DNA from: a virus
Direction: 5' to 3' (one strand)
IMG/VR virus record: IMGVR_UViG_3300023278_000894
Span: 1-26,017 of that record
DNA length: 26,017 nt
Part shown: piece after piece, positions 2,885 through 25,349 of the stretch
Numbering within the stretch: the first letter of the stretch is position 1
Layout: each line of letters starts with the position of its first letter
Position numbers and translations under genes: made by a program
The notes under the pieces: generated by a model
Seen by the model: the letters and a program-made list of their open reading frames with translations, nothing else
The model's database searches: none
Told to the model about the DNA's origin: nothing

Positions 2885-4921
2885 ATGAATAAGATTTTCA
2901 ATCTAACATCTACTTTTAAAGCCGCAGAAGCAGACGACGGGTCAGTAATGATTCGTGGTATGGCTAGTACAGCAGACTTTGATCGCGCAGGCGATACAAT
3001 CTCAGCTGAAGCGTGGACAAAAGGTGGACTACAAAACTTTGAGAAAAATCCAATTATTCTGTTTAATCATGACTATGACAGACCAATTGGTCGAGCCACG
3101 GGTATGAAAGCAGGGCCTAATGGTTTGGAACTCGAATGTAAGATCAGCAAAAATGCCCCTGGCAATGTTGCTGAGCTTGTTAAAGACGGTGTCCTTGGAG
3201 CCTTTTCCGTCGGTTTCAAAGTCAAGGACGCAGATTACATCAAGGAAACTGATGGACTAATGATTAAGGACGCTGAGTTGTTTGAGGTATCGGTTGTTTC
3301 CGTGCCCTGCAATCAGTCAGCTACTTTTTCGCTCGCGAAGTCTTTTGACTCAACTAATGAGTACGAAGAATTCAAAAAAACTTTCACTAATCGTGTAGAT
3401 CTAGCCGGTCAGTCTCTGGCTAAGGACGAAGATACTTCTTCAAATATAGCTAGTGACCACACACCGAAAAGCGCGGAACTTATTTCCGCAGATCAGGAGA
3501 TCAAAATGGACAATCAAAACATCGACTTGGAAGCTTTTGCAAAGAAGGTAGCTGAAGACACAGCCGCTAAGATTGCTATGAAGCTAGCCGAGCAAAAAGC
3601 AGCTGACGAAGCAGTAGCTAAAGCAGCTCAAGAAGCCGAAGTTGCTAAAGCAGCTGAAGGCGCACAAATTAAATCAGTAATCGAAAGCGGAATCGCCACT
3701 GGCGTTGAAGCTCTAGAAGCTGATATGACAAAAGCTTTTGAAGCCGCTAAAGGCGACGAAATCAGCGCTCTAGTTAAGAAGTACGAAGCCCAGGTTGCTG
3801 AGAAAAGTGCAGAGCTAGAATCTATGCGTAACAGCAAAATGGAATTCGCTAAGTCTGGCGGCCAGAAGAGCATGTCTGATTTTGGTCAGGACTACTTGAA
3901 TGCTGAAATCTTAGGTAAAATCACTGGTAAAGGTTGGGATACTGACTATGCCAAAGACGTAATGGCAAAAACTGCAGCTGTTGTTCCTTCAGCTCTGAAC
4001 GTTACTACTGTTGATTTCTCTCTAGCATATACTGATGCCTTCGAGCAAGCAGTAGGTCTGGAAACTAAAGTAGGCGGTCTCTTCCGTGAAGTTGAAATGC
4101 AGTCTAACTCTTTAGTAATTCCTTTCTTGGGTGAAGTAAACCCAGCTACTTTCAGCACTAATACTGGTCTGTTGGCTTCTGCTAACTCACTAGAACTGAC
4201 TGGCATTAGTGATGACGATTTCGACGTCTCTAACAAGATCCTTATCGCTGAGCGTTTAGTTGCTGGTACTTACATCGACAACAACATCGACGAAGGTCAA
4301 ATCATCAGCTTCCTGCCTATGATCAACGCTGCTATCGCACGTGCTCACGGTCAGGCTATTGATACTGCTATCCTTTATGGTACTGCTGGTTCAACTGCCG
4401 GTCTTCTTGATGCTGGTGGCGATAAAGATACTGCTGTTGGTTCATACGACGGTTCTGGTACTAAGCTTGTTATGACTGGTGCTCAGGCTGACGGCTCTAC
4501 AGCATTGACTGCTGCAGAACTTAACGTAGCTCGCGGAAGCATGGGCGTTCACGGTATCGATCCTAACAAACTGGCTTATGTTATCAACTCTGATGCATAC
4601 TACGATCTGTTGTTAGATGGCGAATTCCAAGACGTTACTGACGTTGGTGGTCTTGCTACTAAAGTAACTGGTCAAGTTGGTATGTTGTTCGGCTCTCCAG
4701 TTATCGTTAGTGATCAGATCCCTAATGGTGCTGATGCTAAGTCGTTTGGCGTTATCGTTAATACTGACTCTGCACTTATCGGTCGTCTACGTGGCGTTAG
4801 CCTTGAGACTGAGTACAAGCCTTCAGAGCAGCGTACTGCAATCATTGCAAGTCAATCTCTTGGATTCAAGACTATCCAAGGCGCGACTTCTTCAATTGGT
4901 CTGCATTACCTCGCAAACTAA
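2885..4921 (+). CDS. Prohead protease - scaffold - major capsid protein fusion
   Basis: A single 678-residue frame joins functions that HK97 splits over two genes. Residues about 15-150 are the prohead serine protease (S78-like): conserved MASTxDFDRAGD, a probable catalytic His in FNHDYD (H62), Ser in GAFSVGF (S108), and the ELFEVSVVSVPCN strand (131-143) with the acidic partner. Residues about 155-208 form a poorly ordered linker. Residues about 209-318 are Ala/Lys/Glu-rich coiled coil, like the HK97 delta (scaffold) domain. Residues about 330-678 are the HK97-fold major capsid protein, ending in a typical capsid tail. The Shine-Dalgarno site for this start is weak (GAGA). A much stronger one (AGGAGA) sits before in-frame Met208 at 3506, so capsid plus scaffold is probably also made alone. 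Protease autocleavage would release mature capsid. The fusion is seen in sequence; the dual start is inferred. Confidence 0.93.
   Translation: MNKIFNLTSTFKAAEADDGSVMIRGMASTADFDRAGDTISAEAWTKGGLQNFEKNPIILFNHDYDRPIGRATGMKAGPNGLELECKISKNAPGNVAELVKDGVLGAFSVGFKVKDADYIKETDGLMIKDAELFEVSVVSVPCNQSATFSLAKSFDSTNEYEEFKKTFTNRVDLAGQSLAKDEDTSSNIASDHTPKSAELISADQEIKMDNQNIDLEAFAKKVAEDTAAKIAMKLAEQKAADEAVAKAAQEAEVAKAAEGAQIKSVIESGIATGVEALEADMTKAFEAAKGDEISALVKKYEAQVAEKSAELESMRNSKMEFAKSGGQKSMSDFGQDYLNAEILGKITGKGWDTDYAKDVMAKTAAVVPSALNVTTVDFSLAYTDAFEQAVGLETKVGGLFREVEMQSNSLVIPFLGEVNPATFSTNTGLLASANSLELTGISDDDFDVSNKILIAERLVAGTYIDNNIDEGQIISFLPMINAAIARAHGQAIDTAILYGTAGSTAGLLDAGGDKDTAVGSYDGSGTKLVMTGAQADGSTALTAAELNVARGSMGVHGIDPNKLAYVINSDAYYDLLLDGEFQDVTDVGGLATKVTGQVGMLFGSPVIVSDQIPNGADAKSFGVIVNTDSALIGRLRGVSLETEYKPSEQRTAIIASQSLGFKTIQGATSSIGLHYLAN
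3473..3508 (+). promoter_or_regulatory. Internal ribosome binding site and start for the capsid part, with upstream hairpin
   Basis: AGGAGA (3495-3500) is spaced ideally from an in-frame ATG at 3506 (Met208 of the fusion). It is preceded by an inverted repeat GCGGAA-CTTAT-TTCCGC (3473-3489). Initiation here would give a 471-residue scaffold-plus-capsid protein lacking the protease. The site falls exactly at the boundary between the protease linker and the scaffold coiled coil, which supports function. Confidence 0.75.
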
Positions 4922-5573: not shown

Positions 5574-6995
5574 GTGAGTAATGCCTCCGTCAAGAAACGG
5601 ATGTCTGATCAGATACTAAAGGCTGCTACTAAAAAAGAAGCCGAACTTATGAGAGCTTCTGCTCAAACGAGGAGACCTCAGGTTGTATATTTACAGGATT
5701 TAAAATGGTTAGACGACATTATTCTTGAGATGATGGATAGAGGTCGTATGCCCAAAAACCGTTTTAAAAGGTACAATACGCCAAAAAACTTACAAAAAGC
5801 TAGAGCCCTTGCACGTACAAAGCAAGCTACTTATCTGAAGAATAACAAGTTAAATGGTTCCCAGCCCGCAAGTGTGTTAAATACTGTTCCTGGCACTAAG
5901 CTCGCTGGTGATGCTCCTGAAATTTTTGCACTATTACAAAAGGGAGAGGCATTTCTTGTAGGTTCATTTTCTACTGCGGGTGAGTTAAAGAAAGACATAA
6001 TCGAAGCTATTGTTACTCAAAAAGCTCGTAAGGATTTTGTAGACTCAATTAAAGGCAGTGTAGATAGAGGACACGGGGCCGGTACAGGCACTCCAATATC
6101 TGGTTTAAGTATAAACCAAGCCTCTCAAGGCATACATGATCTTCTTACTCCCGAACAACAGGGAGAGTTTAATGCTTATGTTCGGAAAGAGGCAGACGGA
6201 CTTTTAAAATCCGGACAAATTGATAACTTAGCGCACTCTATGATAGTAGGTTGTACAGTAGACTATCAGACAACTATAGATAACAAAGGGCGCTTGCGCG
6301 CAGACTATGTTCCTGTTTTACAATATCAAGATAAGTATGCGAATCAGGCAACAGATGGAGTATATGAGAAACTTGCAAAGCAGTCCGCTATGGATATCTT
6401 TAATAGTTTCACAGAAGAAGAGTTCTTAAATTTAGAAGGCTCAGACAGCTTAAAGACTCTAGCAACAAAAGCAATCGTTAATCCTTTAGTAAAAAGTTCA
6501 GGAAAGAATAAATCTTTAAAAGTACAACTAGATAGTAAATTAAAAGGATCTTACAAAGCGGGCAAAGGCAAGGCTAGATCTACAAGTAAAGTCAAAGGTC
6601 GCAGCACTGTTAAACAAAATAAGAAAGGCACTGCACCAAGACTATCAAAAACAAGAGCAAAGAAGAGCTTCACTAGCAACCCTCTGCATATGATTGCTAT
6701 GTTAAATAAAGATTTGCCTGATACAGTAAGAAAGAATATGCAAGCACCCGCGCTCGTAAATCGCACAGGCAGATTTTCAGAAAGTGTCAAAGTGTTAGAA
6801 GTTACAGAGACTGCAAAAGGTTTCCCGAGCTTCGGGTATACTTATGATAAAGAGCCTTATGGCGTTTTCGAGATGGGGATGGGAGCAGCTCCTTGGGCAA
6901 CTCCCGAAAGAGATCCAAGACCTTTAATTGATAAATCTATACGAGAAGTAGCACAACAAATGGCAATAGGAAGGTTCTACACTAGGAGAATGTAA
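5574..6995 (+). CDS. Neck/minor head protein with C-terminal HK97 gp10-like domain
   Basis: A 473-residue protein starting with GTG directly after the preceding TAA, so probably translated by coupling; no good Shine-Dalgarno site is visible and Met10 (5601) is an alternative start. Residues about 375-473 match the gp10-like neck/tail-completion pattern: a helix with DLPDTVRKNMQ, NRTGRFSESV (like the family's DTGRLRxSI), PYGVFEMG (like YAPYVEFG), and RDPRPLIDKSI near the end. Typical family members are only about 130-160 residues, so more than 300 residues are added at the N terminus. This extension is basic and helical at first, and has a Lys/Arg/Ser-rich low-complexity stretch at about 318-370. 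I do not recognise the extension. It may contribute a second neck function or contact DNA. The C-terminal call is good; the rest is unknown. Confidence 0.7.
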   Translation: MSNASVKKRMSDQILKAATKKEAELMRASAQTRRPQVVYLQDLKWLDDIILEMMDRGRMPKNRFKRYNTPKNLQKARALARTKQATYLKNNKLNGSQPASVLNTVPGTKLAGDAPEIFALLQKGEAFLVGSFSTAGELKKDIIEAIVTQKARKDFVDSIKGSVDRGHGAGTGTPISGLSINQASQGIHDLLTPEQQGEFNAYVRKEADGLLKSGQIDNLAHSMIVGCTVDYQTTIDNKGRLRADYVPVLQYQDKYANQATDGVYEKLAKQSAMDIFNSFTEEEFLNLEGSDSLKTLATKAIVNPLVKSSGKNKSLKVQLDSKLKGSYKAGKGKARSTSKVKGRSTVKQNKKGTAPRLSKTRAKKSFTSNPLHMIAMLNKDLPDTVRKNMQAPALVNRTGRFSESVKVLEVTETAKGFPSFGYTYDKEPYGVFEMGMGAAPWATPERDPRPLIDKSIREVAQQMAIGRFYTRRM

Positions 6996-7447
6996 TGGCA
7001 GCACGAGGTTATACAACAAGACGACTGGGCATTGTGAATGCTATTGTCGAAAAGCTCAAAGATATTAACGGCTCAGGCGGTTATCTTTCTGACTTAAATG
7101 AGAATATCTCACCTCGACTCAAGTTCTGGGACGAGGTAGAAGAGTTTCCCGCAGTGCATTTAAATGCAGGAGGAGAAACTAGAGAATACCAAGGTGGAGG
7201 CTACAAGGATAGGTTTCTTTCTGTAACTTTACGTTGTTATGTACAAGATGAAGATTCTGTCAGAGCTCTGGACGAGCTTTTAGAGGATGTAGAGACCGTC
7301 CTTGAAGAGAACTCAAGATTATCGTATACTGACAGGCAAGGTAAAACTCAGTATACTCAACAAATCACTATAGTTAGTATTGATACTGACGAAGGTGTGC
7401 TCGAACCTCTAGGTGTTGGTGAGATGCTTATAGAGGTAAGATACTAG
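6995..7447 (+). CDS. Probable tail terminator / tail completion protein
   Basis: A 150-residue protein overlapping the previous stop by one base (TAATG) with a good AGGAG site. The layout matches the tail terminator group (lambda gpU, HK97 gp10-neighbour type): N-terminal helix (RRLGIVNAIVEKLKDI), then FPAVHLNAGGETREYQ, a beta strand FLSVTLRCYV, a second helix SVRALDELLEDVETVL and a final strand GVGEMLIEVRY. Such proteins cap the tube and join tail to head. The position immediately before the tail tube genes is the usual one. The call rests on secondary-structure pattern and position rather than an exact signature. Confidence 0.7.
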   Translation: MAARGYTTRRLGIVNAIVEKLKDINGSGGYLSDLNENISPRLKFWDEVEEFPAVHLNAGGETREYQGGGYKDRFLSVTLRCYVQDEDSVRALDELLEDVETVLEENSRLSYTDRQGKTQYTQQITIVSIDTDEGVLEPLGVGEMLIEVRY

Positions 7448-7452
7448 AAAAT

Positions 7453-7493
7453 ACTGGTATAAGTAAATACTTAAATTCCAGTCTTTTCAAGAC
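7453..7493 (+). other. Leader stem-loops before the first tail tube gene
   Basis: Two overlapping inverted repeats lie in the 63-base gap. The first pairs ACTGG (7453-7457) with CCAGT (7478-7482) around AAGTA-AA-TACTT. The second is GTCTT-TTC-AAGAC (7481-7493). CTTTTCAAGA plus the AGGAGA site recurs before the second tube gene (9612 onward), so gene and leader were duplicated together. No U tract follows, so an RNA stability or translation role is likelier than termination. Confidence 0.5.
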
Positions 7494-7510
7494 AATATAG
7501 GAGAAAAATT

Positions 7511-9544
7511 ATGTCTGAAAATCTATTTTTCAGCAGAGATACAAAAGTCTTTGTAGGGCTTGATAAAATTAAAACACTTCGCATCCAAACTAAAGGGGTG
7601 GGATACACTGAGCCGCCTACTCTTGGTTTCTCTGGTGGCGGAGGTACTGGTGCAGCAGCTACGTGTGTTATCGGAGTTGCTACCGTAGCCGTGTCAAACG
7701 GCGGAAGTGGGTATAGTAGTGCTCCTACTGTAACTGTTAGTGGCGGTGGTGGTTCTGGAGCGGTATTGACTGCTGTGGTTGATGGCGGTGCAATAACGGA
7801 GTTTACTATCGATAATGCAGGTAGTGGATATACTAGTGTTCCTACTGTAGGTGTTTCTGGTGGTGGAGGCTCAAGTGGTGCTGGTACAATAGTTCTAGGT
7901 GTAGTGGATACAACTGTAACAAGTGAAGGGTCTGGATATACGTCCACCCCTACTGTAACTGTTTCTGGTGGCGGCAGTCCTTCAACTGCTGCAGTGATAA
8001 GAGCAGGAGCAGGTATCTGGGAAATTCCAGTACTGGACGGTTTCTCAGTTTCTCAAGGTACTAATACATCAGAGATCACTTTAAATGAAGCGTCCGATAC
8101 TAGCGGTAATAGCCTTCGTGGTCGTCAAATGTTTACGGACTCATATGCTCCGGCAGAGTGGAGCTTTTCCACCTATGCAAGACCTTTCATAGGTAGCGGT
8201 ACTGTTGCTGGCGGCGGCGCAGACAATGTAGCTCGCCATCACGCAGTTGAAGAAGTACTGTGGGCACTTATGTCAGGTAATGCAGGGTATATTGGCCCTG
8301 TTGAAGGCAATCAGAATACTGTTTGGGACGAAGGATTGCATAATACTTTAGCCTCTCCGAACGATAATGTGCAGTTTATTGATTTTGTGGACACAAATAA
8401 AACAGATCTAGGCACCTGTCAAATATACTTTAATTTAGGCGAATCAAGTACCGAAAATAAAATAATGGCACTGCCAACTTTCTCCGCATCAGACCAACTT
8501 ACCACAGGTGATACACTCGTCGGCAGTTCCGTTATTACCATTTTAACTCTGGGAACTACTACACAGGCTGCCCTTAGAACTTTGTTTGGTGAAAGTGATG
8601 GCAGCGTAACTTATGTTGCAGGGGAAAAAGTAACTAATGCATCTGGTGATCGTACGATTCCTGCAGGAGATGTTACAGTTGCACTATCTGAGGGTGGGTC
8701 CAACGCTCGATTATTTCTTCCGGATGTGACCGGTATCGAAGTAGGGGATATAATTACTTTTGCTCATAATGCTGCTGAGCGAACAGTACTTGAGATTGAT
8801 CCCGATAATGACGGCGGTATAAATGATTTTCAGTTTGTACAAATGAGCGCAGCTTTGGTAGTGCCAGATGAGACGGTAGTTACCTTTAGCCGTAGAATAA
8901 CATATAAAGTCGAAGAGTGTTGTGTGAATGAAGCCAGCATTGATTTTGATATTGATGGTATCGCTACTGTCAACTGGTCAGGCTTAGGTAAGCTAATTAC
9001 TGAGGCTGCAACGCCTACTGCTACAGTATACGAAGGCACTACCTCTACAAGTAATATGATACGTAATCGACTAACTTCTATGACTCTAGCTGCTGCAGAT
9101 CATACAACTTTCCCAGGAGATAGCGATGGAGATGGCACTTACAACTTGGTTCTTACTGGAGGTAATGTTACTATTAGCAATAATATGACATATCTTACTC
9201 CAGAAACTACTGGTATAGTAAATCAGCCTTTAGAACATGTCACAGGTACTAGAAGTATTTCGGGCAGCTTTACTACTTATTTAGATAAGACAGTAGGCGG
9301 TTCAGCAGATCTATTTGAGGATATTATTGAAGCAACCTCAAGTGTAACCAATAGCTTTGCTTCAACCTTCCATATTGGTGGAGTGGACGCAGCTCCTGGA
9401 ATTAAATTAACAATGGCAAACTGCCACTTAGAAGTACCAACACACTCTTTAGACGATGTAATCGGCATGGAAGTCAACTTCCACGCTCTTCCTTCTACTA
9501 TAAGTGGTACTGATGAACTAACTGTCGCCTACAAAGGTGCTTAA
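7511..9544 (+). CDS. Tail tube-like protein A with GxGYT repeat insert
   Basis: A 677-residue tail-tube-type protein with a good AGGAG site. Its backbone matches the 420-residue gene at 9640: the same start (FSRxTKV), [22 protein letters not shown] (about 172-193), [20 protein letters not shown] (204-222), [22 protein letters not shown] (470-491), IRNRLTS (517-523) and a C-terminal [25 protein letters not shown]. Two extra blocks are absent from the paralog. Residues about 25-165 hold four GxGYT..PTVxVSGGGG beta repeats. Residues about 316-463 hold a Ser/Thr/Gly-rich block ending in [15 protein letters not shown] and a VxFSRR strand. The protein would form or decorate the tail tube, with inserts displayed outside, as lambda gpV displays an Ig domain. 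Structure is inferred; the insertions are seen directly by comparison. Confidence 0.82.
7595..7993 (+). repeat. Four in-frame GxGYT..PTVxVSGGGG repeats
   Basis: The tyrosine positions are residues 32, 68, 107 and 143 of protein A, a period of 36-39 residues. Each unit reads roughly GxGY(T/S)xxPT(V/L)xxSGGGG followed by a short hydrophobic strand. The repeat is visible in DNA as TCCTACTGTA or close variants. It is a coding repeat, likely a small beta-solenoid or beta-sandwich array. Confidence 0.85.
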
Positions 9545-9582
9545 AAAAAGTTCTTGACAATTCCTGAGTATTGCACTATAAT
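9541..9582 (+). promoter_or_regulatory. Sigma70-type promoter P2
   Basis: TTGACA (9554-9559), 17-base spacer, TATAAT (9577-9582), both perfect. The A-rich element TTAAAAAAAGTTC (9541-9553) precedes it and contains the stop codon of protein A. Transcription should start near 9589 and read tail tube gene B. Confidence 0.9.
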
Positions 9583-9590
9583 GATGTTTA

Positions 9591-9617
9591 GAAAAGTGGA
9601 ATACTCTAGGACTTTTC
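9591..9617 (+). other. 5'-end stem-loop of the P2 transcript
   Basis: GAAAAGT (9591-9597) is perfectly complementary to ACTTTTC (9611-9617). The stem would lie at the very 5' end of the RNA from P2, upstream of the AGGAGA site at about 9627. A stabilising 5' hairpin for a highly expressed structural mRNA is a plausible role. Confidence 0.5.
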
Positions 9618-9639
9618 AAGATGCATAGGAGATAAAACT

Positions 9640-10902
9640 ATGGCAAATTTACAATTTAGTAGAAATACAAAAGTCTATATTACTAACGTGGCTAACCAGC
9701 CGAGCTATGTTTGGAACATCCCCGTTCTTGATGGCTTTTCTTTCTCACAAGGTACAAACTCTTCAGAAATTACCCTAAACGAAATGGCTGACGCAAGCGG
9801 TAATAGCCGTCGCGGTCGTCAAATGTTTAATGACTCATATGCTCCTGCAGAATGGAGCTTCTCTACATACATCCGTCCTTTCGTTTCAGCGGGTACTACT
9901 CAAGCTTTGACTAATGGTAGTGCGGCAAACAGTGCTGTTACTTGTGCGGTTGAAGAAATATTATGGGCACAAATGATCGGTACGGGCGCTTATACAGCAC
10001 CTAACTTCGCCAACCTTACAAAAGCTAATGCAGCTACAGGACTTGACATCAGTTTTGCAAACTCTAACAAAGTAACTCTTGGTACTTTTGATTTGCTATT
10101 CTCACTTGGTGAAGAGGCCACTTCTCCTGTTTACAAGATCGAAGGCTGTTGCATAAATGAAGCCGGTATTGATTTTGATATTGATGGTATCGCTACTATC
10201 AACTGGTCAGGCATGGGCAAGATCGTTAAAGAACTAGAGTCTCCTGAAGTAATTAGACAAGCCTCAGCGCCTACTGCTAGTGCTATTGGCCAGCTTTGGT
10301 TTGATAGTGACGCAACAGGCTACCCTCTCTACATAGCTCAAGCAACTGGCTCAAGCAACTGGAAGCAAGAGATTAACGAAGGCGCAGGCGATACTGATAC
10401 TGGTAACTTTATTCGTAACCGTTTGACTTCTTTAACTATGACAGCCGCTGATACTACTCTGTATCCAGGAGCCTCTAGTAATGGTGTTTATAACACTGTT
10501 ATCACGGGCGGTAGTGTCACTATTAGTAATAACATGACCTTCTTAACTCCGGAAACTCTTGGTATCGTAAACCAGCCTCTTGGGCATGTTACAGGCACTA
10601 GATCAGTCGGTGGCAGCTTTACCTGTTATTTGAACATGGATACTGGCTCTTCTGCAGACTTGTTTGAAGATATTATCGAAAACACTGCAGATGTTACTAA
10701 CAGCTTTGATCTTACCTTTGGTATTGGTGGAACAACTTCTAGTACTTCACGAGTTGAGCTGCACATGGAAACATGTCACTTAGAGGTTCCTACCCACTCA
10801 ATGGATGATGTAATCTCTTTAGAAGTCAACTTCCATGCTCTACCTAGCACTATTGGCGGAGTTAATGAGCTGAATGTTAAATACTTTGGTACCACTCTGT
10901 AA
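9640..10902 (+). CDS. Tail tube-like protein B
   Basis: A 420-residue paralog of the protein at 7511 with the most compact backbone, driven by its own promoter and a strong AGGAGA site. It is therefore the best candidate for the main tail tube subunit. Backbone blocks run [14 protein letters not shown] (27-40), [20 protein letters not shown] (58-77), the paired cysteines in [17 protein letters not shown] (169-185), IRNRLTS (258-264) and LEVPTHSMDDV (381-391). One private insert lies at about 201-253, with APTASAIGQLWFDSDATGYP and SSNWKQ. This resembles the short beta modules (GxLWFD...W) found in many phage tail and fibre proteins. The segment around 10168-10197 is identical in 30 of 30 bases to the first paralog, so the duplication is recent or kept similar by conversion. 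The tube role is inferred from copy arrangement and position before chaperones and tape measure. Confidence 0.82.
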   Translation: MANLQFSRNTKVYITNVANQPSYVWNIPVLDGFSFSQGTNSSEITLNEMADASGNSRRGRQMFNDSYAPAEWSFSTYIRPFVSAGTTQALTNGSAANSAVTCAVEEILWAQMIGTGAYTAPNFANLTKANAATGLDISFANSNKVTLGTFDLLFSLGEEATSPVYKIEGCCINEAGIDFDIDGIATINWSGMGKIVKELESPEVIRQASAPTASAIGQLWFDSDATGYPLYIAQATGSSNWKQEINEGAGDTDTGNFIRNRLTSLTMTAADTTLYPGASSNGVYNTVITGGSVTISNNMTFLTPETLGIVNQPLGHVTGTRSVGGSFTCYLNMDTGSSADLFEDIIENTADVTNSFDLTFGIGGTTSSTSRVELHMETCHLEVPTHSMDDVISLEVNFHALPSTIGGVNELNVKYFGTTL

Positions 10903-10909
10903 TAGGTAC

Positions 10910-10951
10910 TCAAAAATAATTCTTGACATTTATGGTTGTTTCAACTATACT
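10910..10951 (+). promoter_or_regulatory. Sigma70-type promoter P3
   Basis: TTGACA (10923-10928), 17-base spacer, TATACT (10946-10951; one change from consensus). The A-rich element TCAAAAATAATTC (10910-10922) precedes it. The predicted start near 10958 reads the LamG-containing gene. Confidence 0.88.
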
Positions 10952-10968
10952 ATGTGTAAGAAAAAAGT

Positions 10969-10991
10969 AAGGGGCTCTTTTCGAGCCCTTT
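10969..10991 (+). other. GC-rich stem-loop in the P3 leader
   Basis: AAGGGGCTC, loop TTTTC, GAGCCCTTT form a 9-bp stem with one G-U pair. It lies about 11 bases after the predicted start of the P3 RNA and about 10 bases before the GGAG ribosome site. Only three T residues follow, so full termination is doubtful; RNA protection or attenuation are both possible. Confidence 0.55.
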
Positions 10992-11009
10992 ATGCTATCC
11001 GGAGAAATA

Positions 11010-12671
11010 ATGGCTAATTTTAACTTTTTAAAACAGGCAAAAGTCAAGTTGGTTACAGGTTTAACCCCCTCAGCCGCTGTAGACTACCCTGTGCTTGGAT
11101 TAAAACATAGTTTTAGTTTGTCTAACTTAACAGACGGAGTAGTAGATCGCATAGAAGGAAAAGTAGGTGTCGTTACAGAAACAACAGGTACTGAGGCCAC
11201 TGTAGCGTACTCTGGTAGTGACAGCCCTACGGGGTTGGGCGCTTTGACTTTTGATGGAGAAGACGAGACAAACGGTGGTAGAGGCATAACTCTTTTAAGC
11301 GAAGCCGATGCAGACACCTGGGAAGATGTAACAGGAGACTGGACATTTGCTGTTTGGATACGCTCAGAGATAACAGGCAACGGCACCACTGATACTGTCA
11401 GTAACCAAGCTCGTGTAGTAAGTAGAGACTTCAGCGATGGTTTTGGTATTAAACTAAATCAGTTCGCCAGCAGCGGCGACCAAGATATTCAAATATACGG
11501 AGAGCCAGGCTCTTTTAATATAACTGCCTCTAACCTGAATACTAATCAGTGGTACCACTTATGTTTAGTATGTGAAGACGATGGAGGCGCTGCCCCTTCT
11601 AAAAATCTTACGTTTTTTCTAGACGGTGTTTTACAGACTGGTACTACTACTTATACTCGATCAGCAACACCTTCGCCTCTTACTTTAGCCTCGGGTGTAG
11701 AGCGTACCGAATTTGACGGTTCAACAGCAAGAGCAGCCAACGGCTTCACAGGAAGTATGGCAGATGTGCGTTTATTTACAAAAGCTTTAAGTGCCTTAGA
11801 GATAAATGCATTGATAAGCGGTAAGGCCGCAGCTATTCACACTTTAGAAGTAGACCCAGATCTTACTTTTAGTCAAACCTTTACAGAAGATAGCTTTAGT
11901 ACAAAGACTATCCACACTGATGATTTTTTTGAATCCTCTACAATAACGAAAGCTAACCAAGCAAACTTTGGGTTTACTGTACCGGCACTAAAAGAGACCG
12001 ATTTTGATATACTTAAAGATAAGTTAGTAGACTGTTCTACGTTTGACTTATATATAGAAACAGAATTAGATGTTTTCAAACTAGAAACCGCAGTATTTAC
12101 AGGTGGAACGTTTGAGATCGAGAGAGAAAAACCTCTGACTTTAGCTCTAGAGGGCGAAGCATCAAAACTAACTTTAGCAGGTGCAGCTACTACTTATGCA
12201 GTACCAGGCTTGCCTGTTGCTCAGAGCGTTCGCACTCACTTAATGAACAAAGAGCTTACAGTAACACTTAATAGTGCAGACATTAGCTCTAATATCTACT
12301 CTATAAAAGCAGAATTACAAAACGACATTAACTGGGTAGGCTATCAAACTGTGAACGCAGGACTCGACGTAACAAATGCGTCTAATGCGATGTACCCTAC
12401 CGAGTTTACTATAGACAAGAAGACCTTATCAGGAAGTATAGGTCAGTATATAACTGATACTACTTCTTCAGACTTACAGAATTTTACCACTGGAGAGTCT
12501 CTCAGAATAAAAGCAGGAGAAACCATATCAAGCGCGTTCTGCGGCTTTGACCTAAATATGGCTTCTTGTAGCTTTACAAATCGCGCCAACGTAGCTGAAG
12601 TGTTTACACAAAACTATGACTGGCGCTCTACCGATAACTCGACAGCTTTGTCGAGTATAATAACCATCTAA
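11010..12671 (+). CDS. Tail tube-like protein C with LamG-type domain
   Basis: The start at 11010 is chosen because GGAG (11001-11004) is well spaced and because MANFNFLKQAKVKL mirrors the start of paralog B; an upstream ATG at 10992 falls in the leader hairpin. The product is 553 residues. Residues about 30-275 form a concanavalin/LamG-type lectin-like fold: LTFDGEDE, WTFAVWIRS (111-119), WYHLCLVCE (181-189), LTFFLDGVLQTG (200-211) and FTGSMADVRLFTKALSALEI (246-265). The remainder (about 276-553) follows the order of segments in A and B at low identity: LTFSQTF, FGFTVPAL, FDLYIETELDVFKLE, a beta pair like the FDIDGIA region, and VRTHLMNKELTVTL. It may be a minor tube subunit that displays a glycan-binding domain along or at the end of the tail. 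The LamG call is good; the third-paralog call is moderate. Confidence 0.78.
   Translation: MANFNFLKQAKVKLVTGLTPSAAVDYPVLGLKHSFSLSNLTDGVVDRIEGKVGVVTETTGTEATVAYSGSDSPTGLGALTFDGEDETNGGRGITLLSEADADTWEDVTGDWTFAVWIRSEITGNGTTDTVSNQARVVSRDFSDGFGIKLNQFASSGDQDIQIYGEPGSFNITASNLNTNQWYHLCLVCEDDGGAAPSKNLTFFLDGVLQTGTTTYTRSATPSPLTLASGVERTEFDGSTARAANGFTGSMADVRLFTKALSALEINALISGKAAAIHTLEVDPDLTFSQTFTEDSFSTKTIHTDDFFESSTITKANQANFGFTVPALKETDFDILKDKLVDCSTFDLYIETELDVFKLETAVFTGGTFEIEREKPLTLALEGEASKLTLAGAATTYAVPGLPVAQSVRTHLMNKELTVTLNSADISSNIYSIKAELQNDINWVGYQTVNAGLDVTNASNAMYPTEFTIDKKTLSGSIGQYITDTTSSDLQNFTTGESLRIKAGETISSAFCGFDLNMASCSFTNRANVAEVFTQNYDWRSTDNSTALSSIITI
12637..12656 (+). repeat. Perfect 8-bp inverted repeat at end of protein C gene
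   Basis: ACTCGACA (12637-12644), loop GCTT, TGTCGAGT (12649-12656) sit inside the last codons of the LamG gene, 40 bases before the chaperone start. No T tract follows. It could be an RNA processing or partial termination point between abundant tube mRNA and the less abundant chaperone/tape measure mRNA. Confidence 0.55.
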
Positions 12672-12695
12672 AATAATATAACAGGAGTATGTAAT

Positions 12696-13127
12696 ATGGA
12701 CCTAAAGAAGTTAATGGTCGACACCAAAGCCGTATGGGTAGATTTCCCAGGCTTGAGCGGATTTTCCGTAGAAGTAGCAAATCTTTCACGTAAAGAGTTA
12801 AACGGTTTACGTAAGCGTTGTACAGGACAGAAGTTTGATCGTAAAACTCGTGCAGTAGTAGAGACTTTAGACGAAGATAAGTTCGTAACTGAGTTTAGCG
12901 CCGCAGTACTTAAAGACTGGAAGGGGCTGACAATGGCACACCTTGAAACTTTACTACTAGTAGACTATGGTAGTGTAGACCCAGAGCAAGAGCTGCCTTT
13001 TACAGCAGACAATGCAGAGACCTTGGTAAGTTCATCAACTGAATTTGACACTTGGCTCAACGAGGTAGTCTTCGATCTAGATAACTTTCGTTCAGGACCA
13101 AAGAGAGGAACTACTGAAGAGGCTTGA
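12696..13127 (+). CDS. Tail assembly chaperone, upstream frame (lambda gpG-like)
   Basis: A 143-residue protein with AGGAG 8 bases before the ATG. It has the small alpha/beta layout of upstream tail chaperones: an N-terminal strand region (VWVDFPGLSGFSVEVANLSR), a helix with KELNGLRKRC, a FDRKTRAVVETLDEDKF turn, a helix KFVTEFSAAVLKDWKGL, and a C-terminal region with FTADNAETLVSSSTEFDTWLNEVV. These are common in siphophage chaperones that coat the tape measure protein while the tube assembles. The position between tube genes and tape measure is canonical. In lambda and most relatives the frame is extended by ribosomal slippage into the next frame; here the downstream frame is open from 13081, overlapping the last 47 bases. 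Confidence 0.82.
   Translation: MDLKKLMVDTKAVWVDFPGLSGFSVEVANLSRKELNGLRKRCTGQKFDRKTRAVVETLDEDKFVTEFSAAVLKDWKGLTMAHLETLLLVDYGSVDPEQELPFTADNAETLVSSSTEFDTWLNEVVFDLDNFRSGPKRGTTEEA
13081..13127 (+). other. Probable programmed frameshift region (+1 or -2) joining the chaperone frames
   Basis: The downstream chaperone frame is open from 13081 and overlaps the upstream gene to its TGA at 13125. It is in the +1 (equivalently -2) frame, not the common -1. Two slippery candidates are seen. AGAGA at 13102-13106 lets an Arg AGA tRNA slip back two bases onto another AGA. TTTC at 13086-13089 lets a Phe tRNA move from TTT to TTC. A weak stem (GCTTGA pairing with TTAAGC, 13122-13141) lies downstream. Either site gives a fusion of about 260 residues. 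Confidence 0.6.
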
Positions 13128-13155
13128 GAGATATTTTAAGCAAGTAAACAGCAAG

Positions 13156-13476
13156 ATGACTCGGGATCGCTATCTTGAGATGTGCGATCAGTTAGGAAAG
13201 GAGCCAGTTGAGAGTGAGATACCTCCCGACTGGCAAGACTTTCCAGAAACAGCAGTAAATGCAATGAACACTTTTAATATGCTCGGAGACAGACTACTCC
13301 CCGACATAGGATATATAGGAAAAGACTATACTAATCTTTCCTACTATTTAGAAATATATAATGTTGAAGATAAAGAATTCTTCCTAGAGCTTCTAACCTG
13401 GTTAGACTCAAGAGCTGTTCAAACCTCGCAAGAGCAAATGAAGCGAGAGCAAGATAAGCTAAAGAGAAAAAAATAG
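13156..13476 (+). CDS. Tail assembly chaperone, downstream frame (gpT-like)
   Basis: From the first ATG the frame gives 106 residues, but no Shine-Dalgarno site precedes it (GCAAG only). The same frame continues upstream to 13081 with protein-like sequence (LLKRLERYFKQVNSK), so the natural product is probably a frameshifted extension of the preceding chaperone. The domain has MTRDRYLEMCDQLGKEPVE (1-19), an IPPDWQDFP segment, mostly helical middle sequence and a Lys/Glu/Gln-rich C-terminal helix. Helical extensions of this type recruit tail tube subunits to the chaperone-coated tape measure in lambda. The gene ends one base into the tape measure GTG start, indicating coupling. Confidence 0.75.
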   Translation: MTRDRYLEMCDQLGKEPVESEIPPDWQDFPETAVNAMNTFNMLGDRLLPDIGYIGKDYTNLSYYLEIYNVEDKEFFLELLTWLDSRAVQTSQEQMKREQDKLKRKK

Positions 13477-16400
13477 TGGCCAATACAGTAACCATGCGGT
13501 TCAGAGTCCTTGAAGATGGAAGTCTTCAGCAAATAGCAAATCAGGCAACCCAAGCAGCTGCGGGCATAGATAGAGCTTCAGACGCCAATACTCGTTTGCA
13601 TAGAACTACCCGCGGTGCTTCAAATATGCAGGGTAATCAGACACGCGCCTTTGCTGCTACAGCAAACAGTGCTGGTGGTCTTGTTGCTGCCTACGCTACT
13701 TTAATGGCACACACGTTTGCTCTTACTGCCGCTTTTGGTGCTCTCCAAAGAGCTTCCGCTCTTGATCAACTCGAACAAGGTTTGATCGCTGTAGGTAATG
13801 CCGCAGGTCAAAATCTTCCTTATGTTGCATCAGAGCTTCAAAATATAACTGATGGCGCTATTACTCTGAAAGAGGCAATGGAAGCAACTGCACTCGCAAC
13901 AAGTGCGGGGTTCAGTACTAGTCAATTAGAAGGTTTAACAAGAGTCGCAAAAGGTGCATCTCTTGCTCTCGGAAGGGACATGGGAGATGCACTTACTCGT
14001 CTTGTAAAAGGTACTGCAAAACTTGAACCTGAAATTCTTGATGAATTGGGTATCATGGTACGCCTTGATGAAGCCGCACAAAAATATGCTGATAGTCTCG
14101 GTGTTGTGGTAGGTGATTTATCCCGTTTTCAAAAGCAGCAAGCATTTCTAAATGCTACTCTTGAACAAGGCGAGAAAAAATTCGCAATGATTTTTGATAA
14201 CGTAGATGCAGAACCTTTTGCTCAGTTATCCGCTCAATTTAGAGACATGGTAAAAGAGATTACTACCTTCATAAATATAGCAGCAATCCCCCTTGTCAAC
14301 TTTTTATCCAGCTTCCCTACTGCAATGGTCGGAGGGCTTTTGCTTCTTGCAAGCTCTGTTACAAAGAAAATATTGCCCGCACTTGGAGAGCTCTCTGCAA
14401 CTAATAGAGCGACGGCGGCTGTTGCAGCTACATCGGCCAGAAATGCAAGTAGAGCAATATCAACCCAATATACAACTGCAGTTGCAGAAGTAAATGCTGC
14501 TTTCAGAACAGTACCACAAAGTGTTCGTGCGGTTGAAGCTGGGTTTCGTTCAGGCTCTCTAAGTCTGGCTGAGTATAGAGCACACCTGGTGACCTTACAA
14601 AGATCAGAGGCTCAGAGAACGGCACGACTTAACACAGGAAACGATGCCACACGGGCACAAAGACAGATAGAGCTTAACCAGATAAGAGAGTTGAGAATTG
14701 CTACCGAGCAGTTAATCGCTACAGAAGGCCGAAGAGGGCAGATAAGTTCCGCAGGTTCTAGAGCACGCTCCACTTCTCACATCGCTCGGAGACAGAGTGT
14801 TGCTCAAGATATGATTGGGCAATCCGGCCCAGCAGAAGGCTTCCGAGTCGCCGCCAGAGCAGCTAGAGGTCATATGGCTACTGTAGGCAGAACTGCAGGC
14901 CCTCTTAATGCTTTGCGTGTAGGCTTCCAGGCTGCTGGTGCTAGTGCTGCTCTCTTCGGTTCTGCATTGCTAAACATCGTCCCTATTATTGGGCAAGTAC
15001 TTTTCTTTGGATCCCTTCTTCTTCCTTTGTTTGGAGGCTTGTTCAAGAAAAGCGGGTTGGCAAAGGCCACGGATGAGGTAGTTAACTCCTTTTCTAGTTT
15101 TGCAAAAATTAGCGCACAGCTAGCTGAGCACTTGAGATCTGTAAAAACTGCAGAAGAAGCCTTCGCTTCAACACTAGCTGTTCGTGTAGGTATTACTCAG
15201 CAGGTTACTGCAGGCATTGCTAAAATGATAGCGGCCAAAGATAAGGATGACATCGACGCTGAGGCAAAAGCTCTTACTCTACTGGCCGCAAGACAGACCA
15301 GCTTGGCAAAAGCCCAAGCTACTGTAGCAAAGCAAACGAGGGACAATGGCACAGTCACGAAGGATGCAAGACAGGCTCTGAGCATGTCTACCCGTAACGC
15401 GGCCGCTGCCGAAGAGACGTATAATAGCATAGTAGCGGATAATAATAGTGTAAGTAAAGAAAGCATTAGGTCACTTTTAGCAGAGGCAAAAGCAAAAGCA
15501 AAAGCTAGCGGTATGACAGAGGCTCTTTCGATTGAGATAGACAAGTACAATGCTTTAGTAAAGAGCGGTGTTCTGAGTGGTGATGGCAATATAAGCACTA
15601 CAGCCCTTACAACAGCTCTCGAAGGTGTAAGCAAACCTCTGTCCGCTCTTCAGCAAGAAACAGCTGGAGTAACTGAACTTACGACTAAAATGGCTAATGA
15701 AACTACTAAAGCTACTAATGAACAAGCAGGAAAGTATGGAGAAGTTTTTGACTCTGTAAATGGTCTACGAACAGGCCTGATAAACGTAGCCCTCGAAGCA
15801 AAGAAAGCTGGAGAGACAGAAGTACGCCCTGTACCTAAAGATACTATAGAGCAAGTTGAGAGATTACAGAAGGCCCTAAAGCTGAACGGTAAGGCTCTTA
15901 CAGGAAGCTATGTCGATCAGTTACAGGTCATTCAAGATAAAATAGCTGCAAATAATGTTCTTATAGCAACTTCTGCGATAGAGAGCAGGAAGTTGACCGA
16001 CACAGCCAAAGAGTTTGGTCAAATTTCCTCGAACAACGCATCTGCAAAAGAAAAAGAATTGGACTACGCTAAGCAATCCCTCGAAGCTACTAAAGCAGGC
16101 GCGCAAGCTAACTATGATAATCTAGCAGCATTAACCGATGGCACGGCTGTAACCAATGATATGCTCAAGGTTCAGGCGGAGATAGACAGAATTACTCGTC
16201 AAATTGCAGCAACAGCTAACGATAGTTTAATAGTAGACATTGCAAAAGTAGAGCAGGCTAACAGATTGGGAGCACTAAACCAGAAAATACTAGCCTCTGA
16301 GAAGGCAATAAATGCCGCCAAGCTAAAAAGCATAGCAGATCAGGCAGTTATTGATAGCACAGCATCTAAGAGAGCTGGAAAGAAACAAACTCCTGCACAA

Positions 16401-25013: not shown

Positions 25014-25349
25014 ATGAGCGCAGCACGCTATAACCTAATCATCGACCAAGGGACCGACTTTGCCCTGGAATTCATCGTAAAGGAGTCAGGAACAGCCAAG
25101 AGTCTTTCCGGGGATACTGCGCGAGCGCAACTTAGACCGACTAAAGATTCTTCCACACTTACAGAAACTTTCACTTGCCTAGTAGAAGACGGTAGTGTCA
25201 CAGGAAAAATCACAGCTAAGTTATCCAACAGCGAAACCTCTGCAATTGCAGCAGGACGCTACTACTATGACTTGGAGCTTGTAGATTCGGGTATAGTAAC
25301 TCGCCTTCTTGAAGGCACTGTTACTGTTACGCAGGAGGTTACTCGTTAA
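25014..25349 (+). CDS. Small beta-rich tail-associated protein
   Basis: A 111-residue protein under P4 with a strong GGAGG site. It has the pattern of small Ig-like or baseplate-associated phage proteins: YNLIIDQGTDFALEFIVK (6-23), a GDTARAQLRPTKDSS strand, GKITAKLSNSETSAI, AGRYYYDLELVDSG and the very characteristic ending LLEGTVTVTQEVTR. Such proteins commonly sit just before tail fibre genes and are thought to attach fibres to the tip. It overlaps the next gene by one base. Role is inferred from pattern and position. Confidence 0.75.
   Translation: MSAARYNLIIDQGTDFALEFIVKESGTAKSLSGDTARAQLRPTKDSSTLTETFTCLVEDGSVTGKITAKLSNSETSAIAAGRYYYDLELVDSGIVTRLLEGTVTVTQEVTR

Follow-up and report, generated by a model that had tools for sequence, protein, structure and literature searches.

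Phage T5 serves as a model for siphophage tails built from trimer rings. In T5, p140 forms a single trimeric ring located between the last ring of the tail tube protein pb6 and the distal tail protein pb9, where it is encircled by the p132 collar (PMC10038345). Tail tubes that are mixed or encoded by several genes are known from other phages. The tube of SPP1 contains a plain and a decorated major tail protein, gp17.1 and gp17.1*, in a ratio of 3:1, with the decorated form arising by frameshift (PMC8718954); TpeX, the decorated form of the major tail protein in lactococcal 936 phages, binds host cells (PMC6669499), and two major tail proteins have been annotated in several actinobacteriophage clusters (PMC11080557, PMC10652937). 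Here we describe a new variant, a tandem pair of pb6-type genes (A and B) followed by a p140-type gene (C), found in the IMG/VR record IMGVR_UViG_3300023278_000894. The stretch analysed, hereafter the window, covers positions 1 to 26,017 of that record (26 kb) and represents a fragment of the tail module of a marine T5-like siphophage. A search of open-licence papers brought up no description of a T5-like phage with pb6-type genes in tandem.

Both A (7511..9544, plus strand, 677 aa, with two large inserts) and B (9640..10902, plus strand, 420 aa, lightly decorated) are T5 pb6-type tail tube proteins. They match the major tail protein family phrog_3575 (E 2e-47 and 8e-53 respectively) and, in phmmer searches, T5 pb6 itself (E 1e-31 for A and 1.4e-37 for B), with A also matching the DT57C homolog (3.7e-33). 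In each protein two stretches match pb6 and cover both tube domains. The AlphaFold model of A, in which the tube core is predicted well, corresponds to T5 pb6 (9iny_A) with a Z of 36.8 and an rmsd of 4.1 over 340 aligned residues, and the duplicated tube fold is thus predicted by the model for A and by sequence for B. The two genes are separate complete open reading frames (ORFs), each with its own start, lying between the tail terminator gene and the p140-type gene. An initial annotation of the window, made from the sequence alone, had recognised common backbone blocks in A and B. Across 355 codons the cores share 63.9% identity, and the blocks are recovered as DNA repeats D1-D3 at 72-82%. 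A match of A to BurrH (PDB 4cj9, E 4e-6) was put down to low-complexity similarity.

The third gene, C (11010..12671, plus strand), encodes a p140-type baseplate tube protein of 553 aa. Its likely start is the ATG at 11010, which is preceded by CGGAG, while the ATG at 10992 is that of the mechanical longest ORF; all three ORFs are found where the initial annotation had placed them. C has the tube fold and is the ortholog of T5 p140. It scores 32.3 bits against the p140 profile PF23779 (curated cut-off of 27), a profile matched by all 36 of the 36 members of the C family, and the family profile compared with PDB sequences finds p140 as its sole match. The gene sits between a tube gene and a tail chaperone gene, with a p132-like collar gene in the same record. 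The best Foldseek match of the C model is the p140 chain 7qg9_G. The model aligns with p140 in the T5 tail tip (9ioz_A) with a Z of 22.9 and an rmsd of 3.6 over 267 residues, compared to a Z of 22.7 with pb6. Given this tie, the fold alone does not separate p140 from pb6; the sequence profile and the gene order do. A tblastn search of C against isolates gave no match and membership in the p140 family rests therefore on profile, fold and synteny. The A/B and C families align colinearly in a profile-profile comparison (probability 97.5%, E 7e-12), in agreement with the earlier observation that C keeps the segment order of A and B at low identity.

The window and T5 encode the same pb6 and p140 families in a common order of terminator, tube, p140, chaperones, tape measure and distal tail protein, and share the duplicated tube domain and the p132-like collar gene. 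Escherichia phage SuperGirl, a T5-like isolate, has a single tube gene but otherwise matches the gene order of the window all the way from terminator to distal tail protein. T5 likewise has one tube gene while the window has two. T5 pb6 carries a C-terminal Ig domain, whereas A and B have no C-terminal extension and contain loop inserts instead. Finally, p140 makes an undecorated ring in T5 (PMC10038345), in contrast to the lectin-like insert of C.

We made further observations on p140 in a census of related loci (L001-L307). Where the tape measure gene is complete, p140 and a pb9-like distal tail protein are both present in 25 loci, both absent in 70, and p140 occurs without the latter in 1; the same tube protein family seemingly sits on two different tip modules. 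In locus L129, one tube gene is followed by p140-type genes of 321 and 317 aa in tandem (9054-11108 of L129). The p140 genes of L202, L160, L161 and L162 encode 756-878 aa with large inserts lacking a Pfam match, an insert-free p140 being about 300 aa long.

The inserts of A and B differ by site, as the initial annotation had noted. Insert mapping locates the first insert of A (7562..8011, plus strand, aa 18-167, low predicted local distance difference test (pLDDT) scores) in the beta1-beta2 hairpin of tube domain 1. It consists of four GxGYT repeat units at 7616-7981, spaced by 108, 117 and 108 nt. The second insert of A, placed by mapping and model (8465..8875, plus strand, about aa 319-455), has no assigned fold. 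In B, a GQLWFDS-type segment of about 30 aa is mapped to the linker between the two tube domains (10252..10380, plus strand). C contains a LamG/ConA-like domain (11058..11822, plus strand; PF13385, E 3e-14), which the initial annotation had identified, in the beta1-beta2 hairpin of tube domain 1. A Pfam search of the A inserts gave no match, and in PHROG the GxGYT part resembles other structural proteins, which does not indicate a function. The C insert matches the lectin domains of AbnA and trans-sialidase with Z of 19-21, and this resemblance to carbohydrate-binding ConA-like domains suggests that it may bind carbohydrate. Glycan binding, previously envisaged along the shaft, thus finds support at the level of the fold for C and no such support for the A and B shaft inserts. 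Foldseek matches of C to clostridial toxin binding domains reflect only the ConA-like lectin fold shared by the insert and are no evidence of a toxin.

In a set of 71 tube proteins, large inserts recur at a small number of fixed loop positions. Only A copies have one in the beta1-beta2 hairpin. The loop after A residue 266 holds one in nine relatives, the loop that follows residue 318-327 or so in A copies and in copy 2 of L016, and the linker between the domains in B and several other proteins. C relatives that have no insert show an unbroken beta1-beta2 hairpin at the exact site of the LamG domain of C. Together with the position of the first insert of A, this indicates that A, a shaft protein, and C, a protein of the baseplate ring, use the same hairpin. 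Inserts diverge more than cores, with A and its L138 counterpart at 93.6% in the core compared to 79.3% and 78.4% in the inserts.

To place the pair among its relatives, we counted tube genes in 161 distinct complete related modules, from which duplicates had been removed and for which the searches favour relatives of the window, and found one tube gene in 153 and two in 8. A terminator-anchored sample, selected independently of tube copies, has two tube genes in 5/51, and the partial contigs L049, L035 and L030 add further pairs to the 8 complete modules. The tandem pairs correspond to two stable lineages plus L035 and L030. The window group has p140, while the second lineage (L004, L005, L187, L016 and L023) is without it. 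Across four contigs the A copies cluster in a clade of their own (98*), as do the B copies (91), in line with stable pairs. For comparison, about 900 T5-like isolate records were searched: the A query finds 902 places in 902 records and the B query 904 in 903, one record giving two places with the B query and otherwise one tube gene place per record.

Both A and B are under purifying selection. The ratio of nonsynonymous to synonymous substitution rates (dN/dS) within the window group is 0.17-0.24 for the A core and 0.09-0.14 for the B core, and is 0.15-0.29 in the second lineage, all of these being rough values as many comparisons have a synonymous divergence above 1. Divergence also changes abruptly between neighbouring genes: the window and L047 are 97.3% alike in the terminator and 68.9% in the A core, and L049 and L047 are 95.8% alike in B and 64.5% in C. 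Such jumps point to the tube genes as a site of recombination.

B and C are each preceded by a predicted sigma-70 consensus promoter while A has none. The site 5' of B (TTGACA-17-TATAAT, 9554..9582, plus strand) matches the consensus at 12/12 positions, a score reached by 0/4000 gap shuffles, and the site 5' of C (TTGACA-17-TATACT, 10923..10951, plus strand) at 11/12, reached by 15/4000. Both sites are strongly conserved clade-wide, which upholds the proposal that B and C stand behind their own promoters. The promoter motif is present in 35 of the 37 gaps between a tube gene and p140 and in 55 of the 78 between a tube gene and a chaperone gene, while the best score never reaches 10/12 in the 91 gaps before a first tube gene. 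A leader motif, CTTTTCA[AG]GA, is found in 55/93 gaps before a tube gene and 3/4 gaps of the A-B type, and in 0/115 gaps after a tube gene. The A-B gap therefore contains a promoter typical of the position after a tube gene, then a leader typical of the position before one. This layout fits the duplication or unequal recombination of a unit composed of leader, tail tube gene and downstream promoter, and it is from such a unit that the A/B pair probably arose. In the second lineage the tube copies lie almost directly next to each other, and its origin thus differs from that of the window group.

Two putative RNA or DNA structures accompany these promoters. A conserved inverted repeat (9566..9606, plus strand, z -3.67) overlaps the -10 of the B promoter and may be an operator or an mRNA hairpin; its arms covary between the window and L139 (GAGTATT/AATACTC and GGGGTATT/AATACCCC). 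A terminator-like hairpin (10967..10993, plus strand), present in most p140-bearing relatives, lies between the promoter and C. In the window (10923-10993) and most of these relatives, the consensus promoter is thus followed within about 20 bases by the hairpin, just 5' of p140, an arrangement that could possibly produce a short RNA or act as an attenuator.

We favour, with moderate confidence, the co-assembly of A and B into a mosaic shaft, plus a decorated p140 ring. A and B would build one T5-like trimer-ring tube around a single tape measure. The bulk subunit would probably be B, which carries little decoration and has a consensus promoter to itself; A, heavily decorated and without its own promoter, would probably be the rarer one, exposing the GxGYT and other domains on the exterior of the shaft. 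C would form the p140-type ring at the baseplate and display its lectin-like domain there. In the segments equivalent to the ring-stacking loops of T5, A and B are 79-81% alike, as are A orthologs (80%), compared to 53% for the rest of the core. Deletion of these loops in T5 impaired tube formation (PMC5717097) and the likeness of A and B in these segments fits co-assembly.

Several points weigh against the mosaic shaft. The stacking loops are conserved family-wide, so that their likeness does not prove mixing. By the approximately unbiased test, a single clade of A and B is neither favoured nor rejected (p 0.55), and the same holds for the copies of the second lineage (p 0.22); with sisterhood undecided A may derive from recombination rather than duplication. 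Protein levels do not follow from promoter strength, and other factors may act on the late genes. The inserts of A are poorly modelled (pLDDT under 50), and the phage is uncultured. More tentatively, and at somewhat less than even confidence, we hypothesize that duplication of the leader, tube gene and promoter unit gives one paralog its own promoter, thereby setting the ratio of plain to heavily decorated subunits, with the same hairpin serving as display site in shaft and ring.

One alternative to co-assembly along the shaft is that A or B is limited to one or a few specialised end rings, by the terminator or by p140, with the other building the whole shaft. A terminal specialised tube ring has a precedent in gp54 of T4. 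The A and B copies are indeed stable, distinct paralogs, and T5 p140 has itself been proposed to derive from a tube gene that was duplicated and became specialised (PMC10038345). Nevertheless, A and B are close in the stacking segments, the second lineage retains two copies without any p140 in the loci available, and large inserts on a terminal ring would require room at the neck or collar, making this arrangement unlikely.

Alternatively, A or B could be used depending on the host or the infection stage, resulting in the switchable tail surface that the initial annotation had raised beside a heteromeric one. While the heteromeric shaft is plausible, we regard switching as improbable. The own promoter of B, with the conserved inverted repeat over its -10 as a possible operator, would be compatible with such regulation. 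However, we found neither long inverted repeats nor signs of invertible elements in 6900-13500, diversity-generating elements not having been searched for; A and B have the same orientation, and both copies are intact across lineages and under purifying selection. Still less probable is that the extra copy is a by-product of a recombination hot-spot making no lasting contribution: tandem pairs are rare (8/161) and adjacent genes show divergence jumps (L049 compared to L047, the window compared to L047), but two lineages keep both copies across large synonymous divergence with dN/dS of 0.09-0.29. Finally, the initial annotation had described three tail tube paralogs, of which A and B stand, yet C, despite its tube fold and remote homology with A/B, is most improbable as the third subunit of a shaft made of A, B and C, because it belongs to the p140 family by sequence (PF23779, PDB profile), fold (Foldseek) and gene order, and T5 p140 makes one ring (PMC10038345).

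A mosaic shaft made of A and B would differ in its genetics from the mixed tubes already known. In SPP1 and the 936 phages a translational frameshift adds a C-terminal domain to the product of one gene, whereas the window has two genes with internal inserts whose products would mix; being separate complete ORFs, A and B do not rely on a frameshift. Two or more major tail protein genes are found in the Microbacterium phages Damascus and Camille and in Gordonia cluster DJ. In Camille, gp17, gp19 and gp20 (286, 410 and 255 aa) are tandem paralogs, all belonging to phrog_2645, a tube protein family other than that of A and B. Camille thus has, as in the window, tandem paralogous major tail proteins of unequal length, and a fused protease-capsid gene is also reported in such actinobacteriophages (PMC11080557). 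Its gp19, the only Camille paralog compared, has no similarity to A/B, and as it matches phrog_2645 over the first 214 aa only, its extra part is C-terminal. The papers found on these actinobacteriophages contain no functional study of their multiple major tail proteins.

Around the three genes, the window contains a head-to-tail module composed of terminase, portal, fused prohead protease-capsid, connector genes and tail terminator, then A, B and C. These are followed by two tail assembly chaperones, the tape measure, the distal tail protein and a large central-fibre protein. The tail terminator (TrP; 6995..7447, plus strand; phrog_3907, E 1e-31) is the 5' neighbour of A. A probable p132-like collar or L-shaped fibre assembly protein is encoded at 25014..25349 (plus strand; phrog_3304, E 1.3e-14; PF23926, E 0.007, below the PF23926 cut-off). 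The fused gene is a 678 aa ORF at 2885-4921 joining prohead protease and major capsid protein (phrog_80 and phrog_267), a fusion also reported in actinobacteriophages with several tail tube genes (PMC11080557).

Essentially every T5-like isolate searched has one shaft gene, while a related marine clade retains two, decorated at different loops. If A and B mix in one tail, the shaft would be a display surface that evolves via added subunits and not by the rebuilding of one. The ring made by p140, described in T5 as needing freedom from decoration, here tolerates a large lectin-like insert, and the beta1-beta2 hairpin shared by A and C is a natural candidate for testing what the tube fold accepts.

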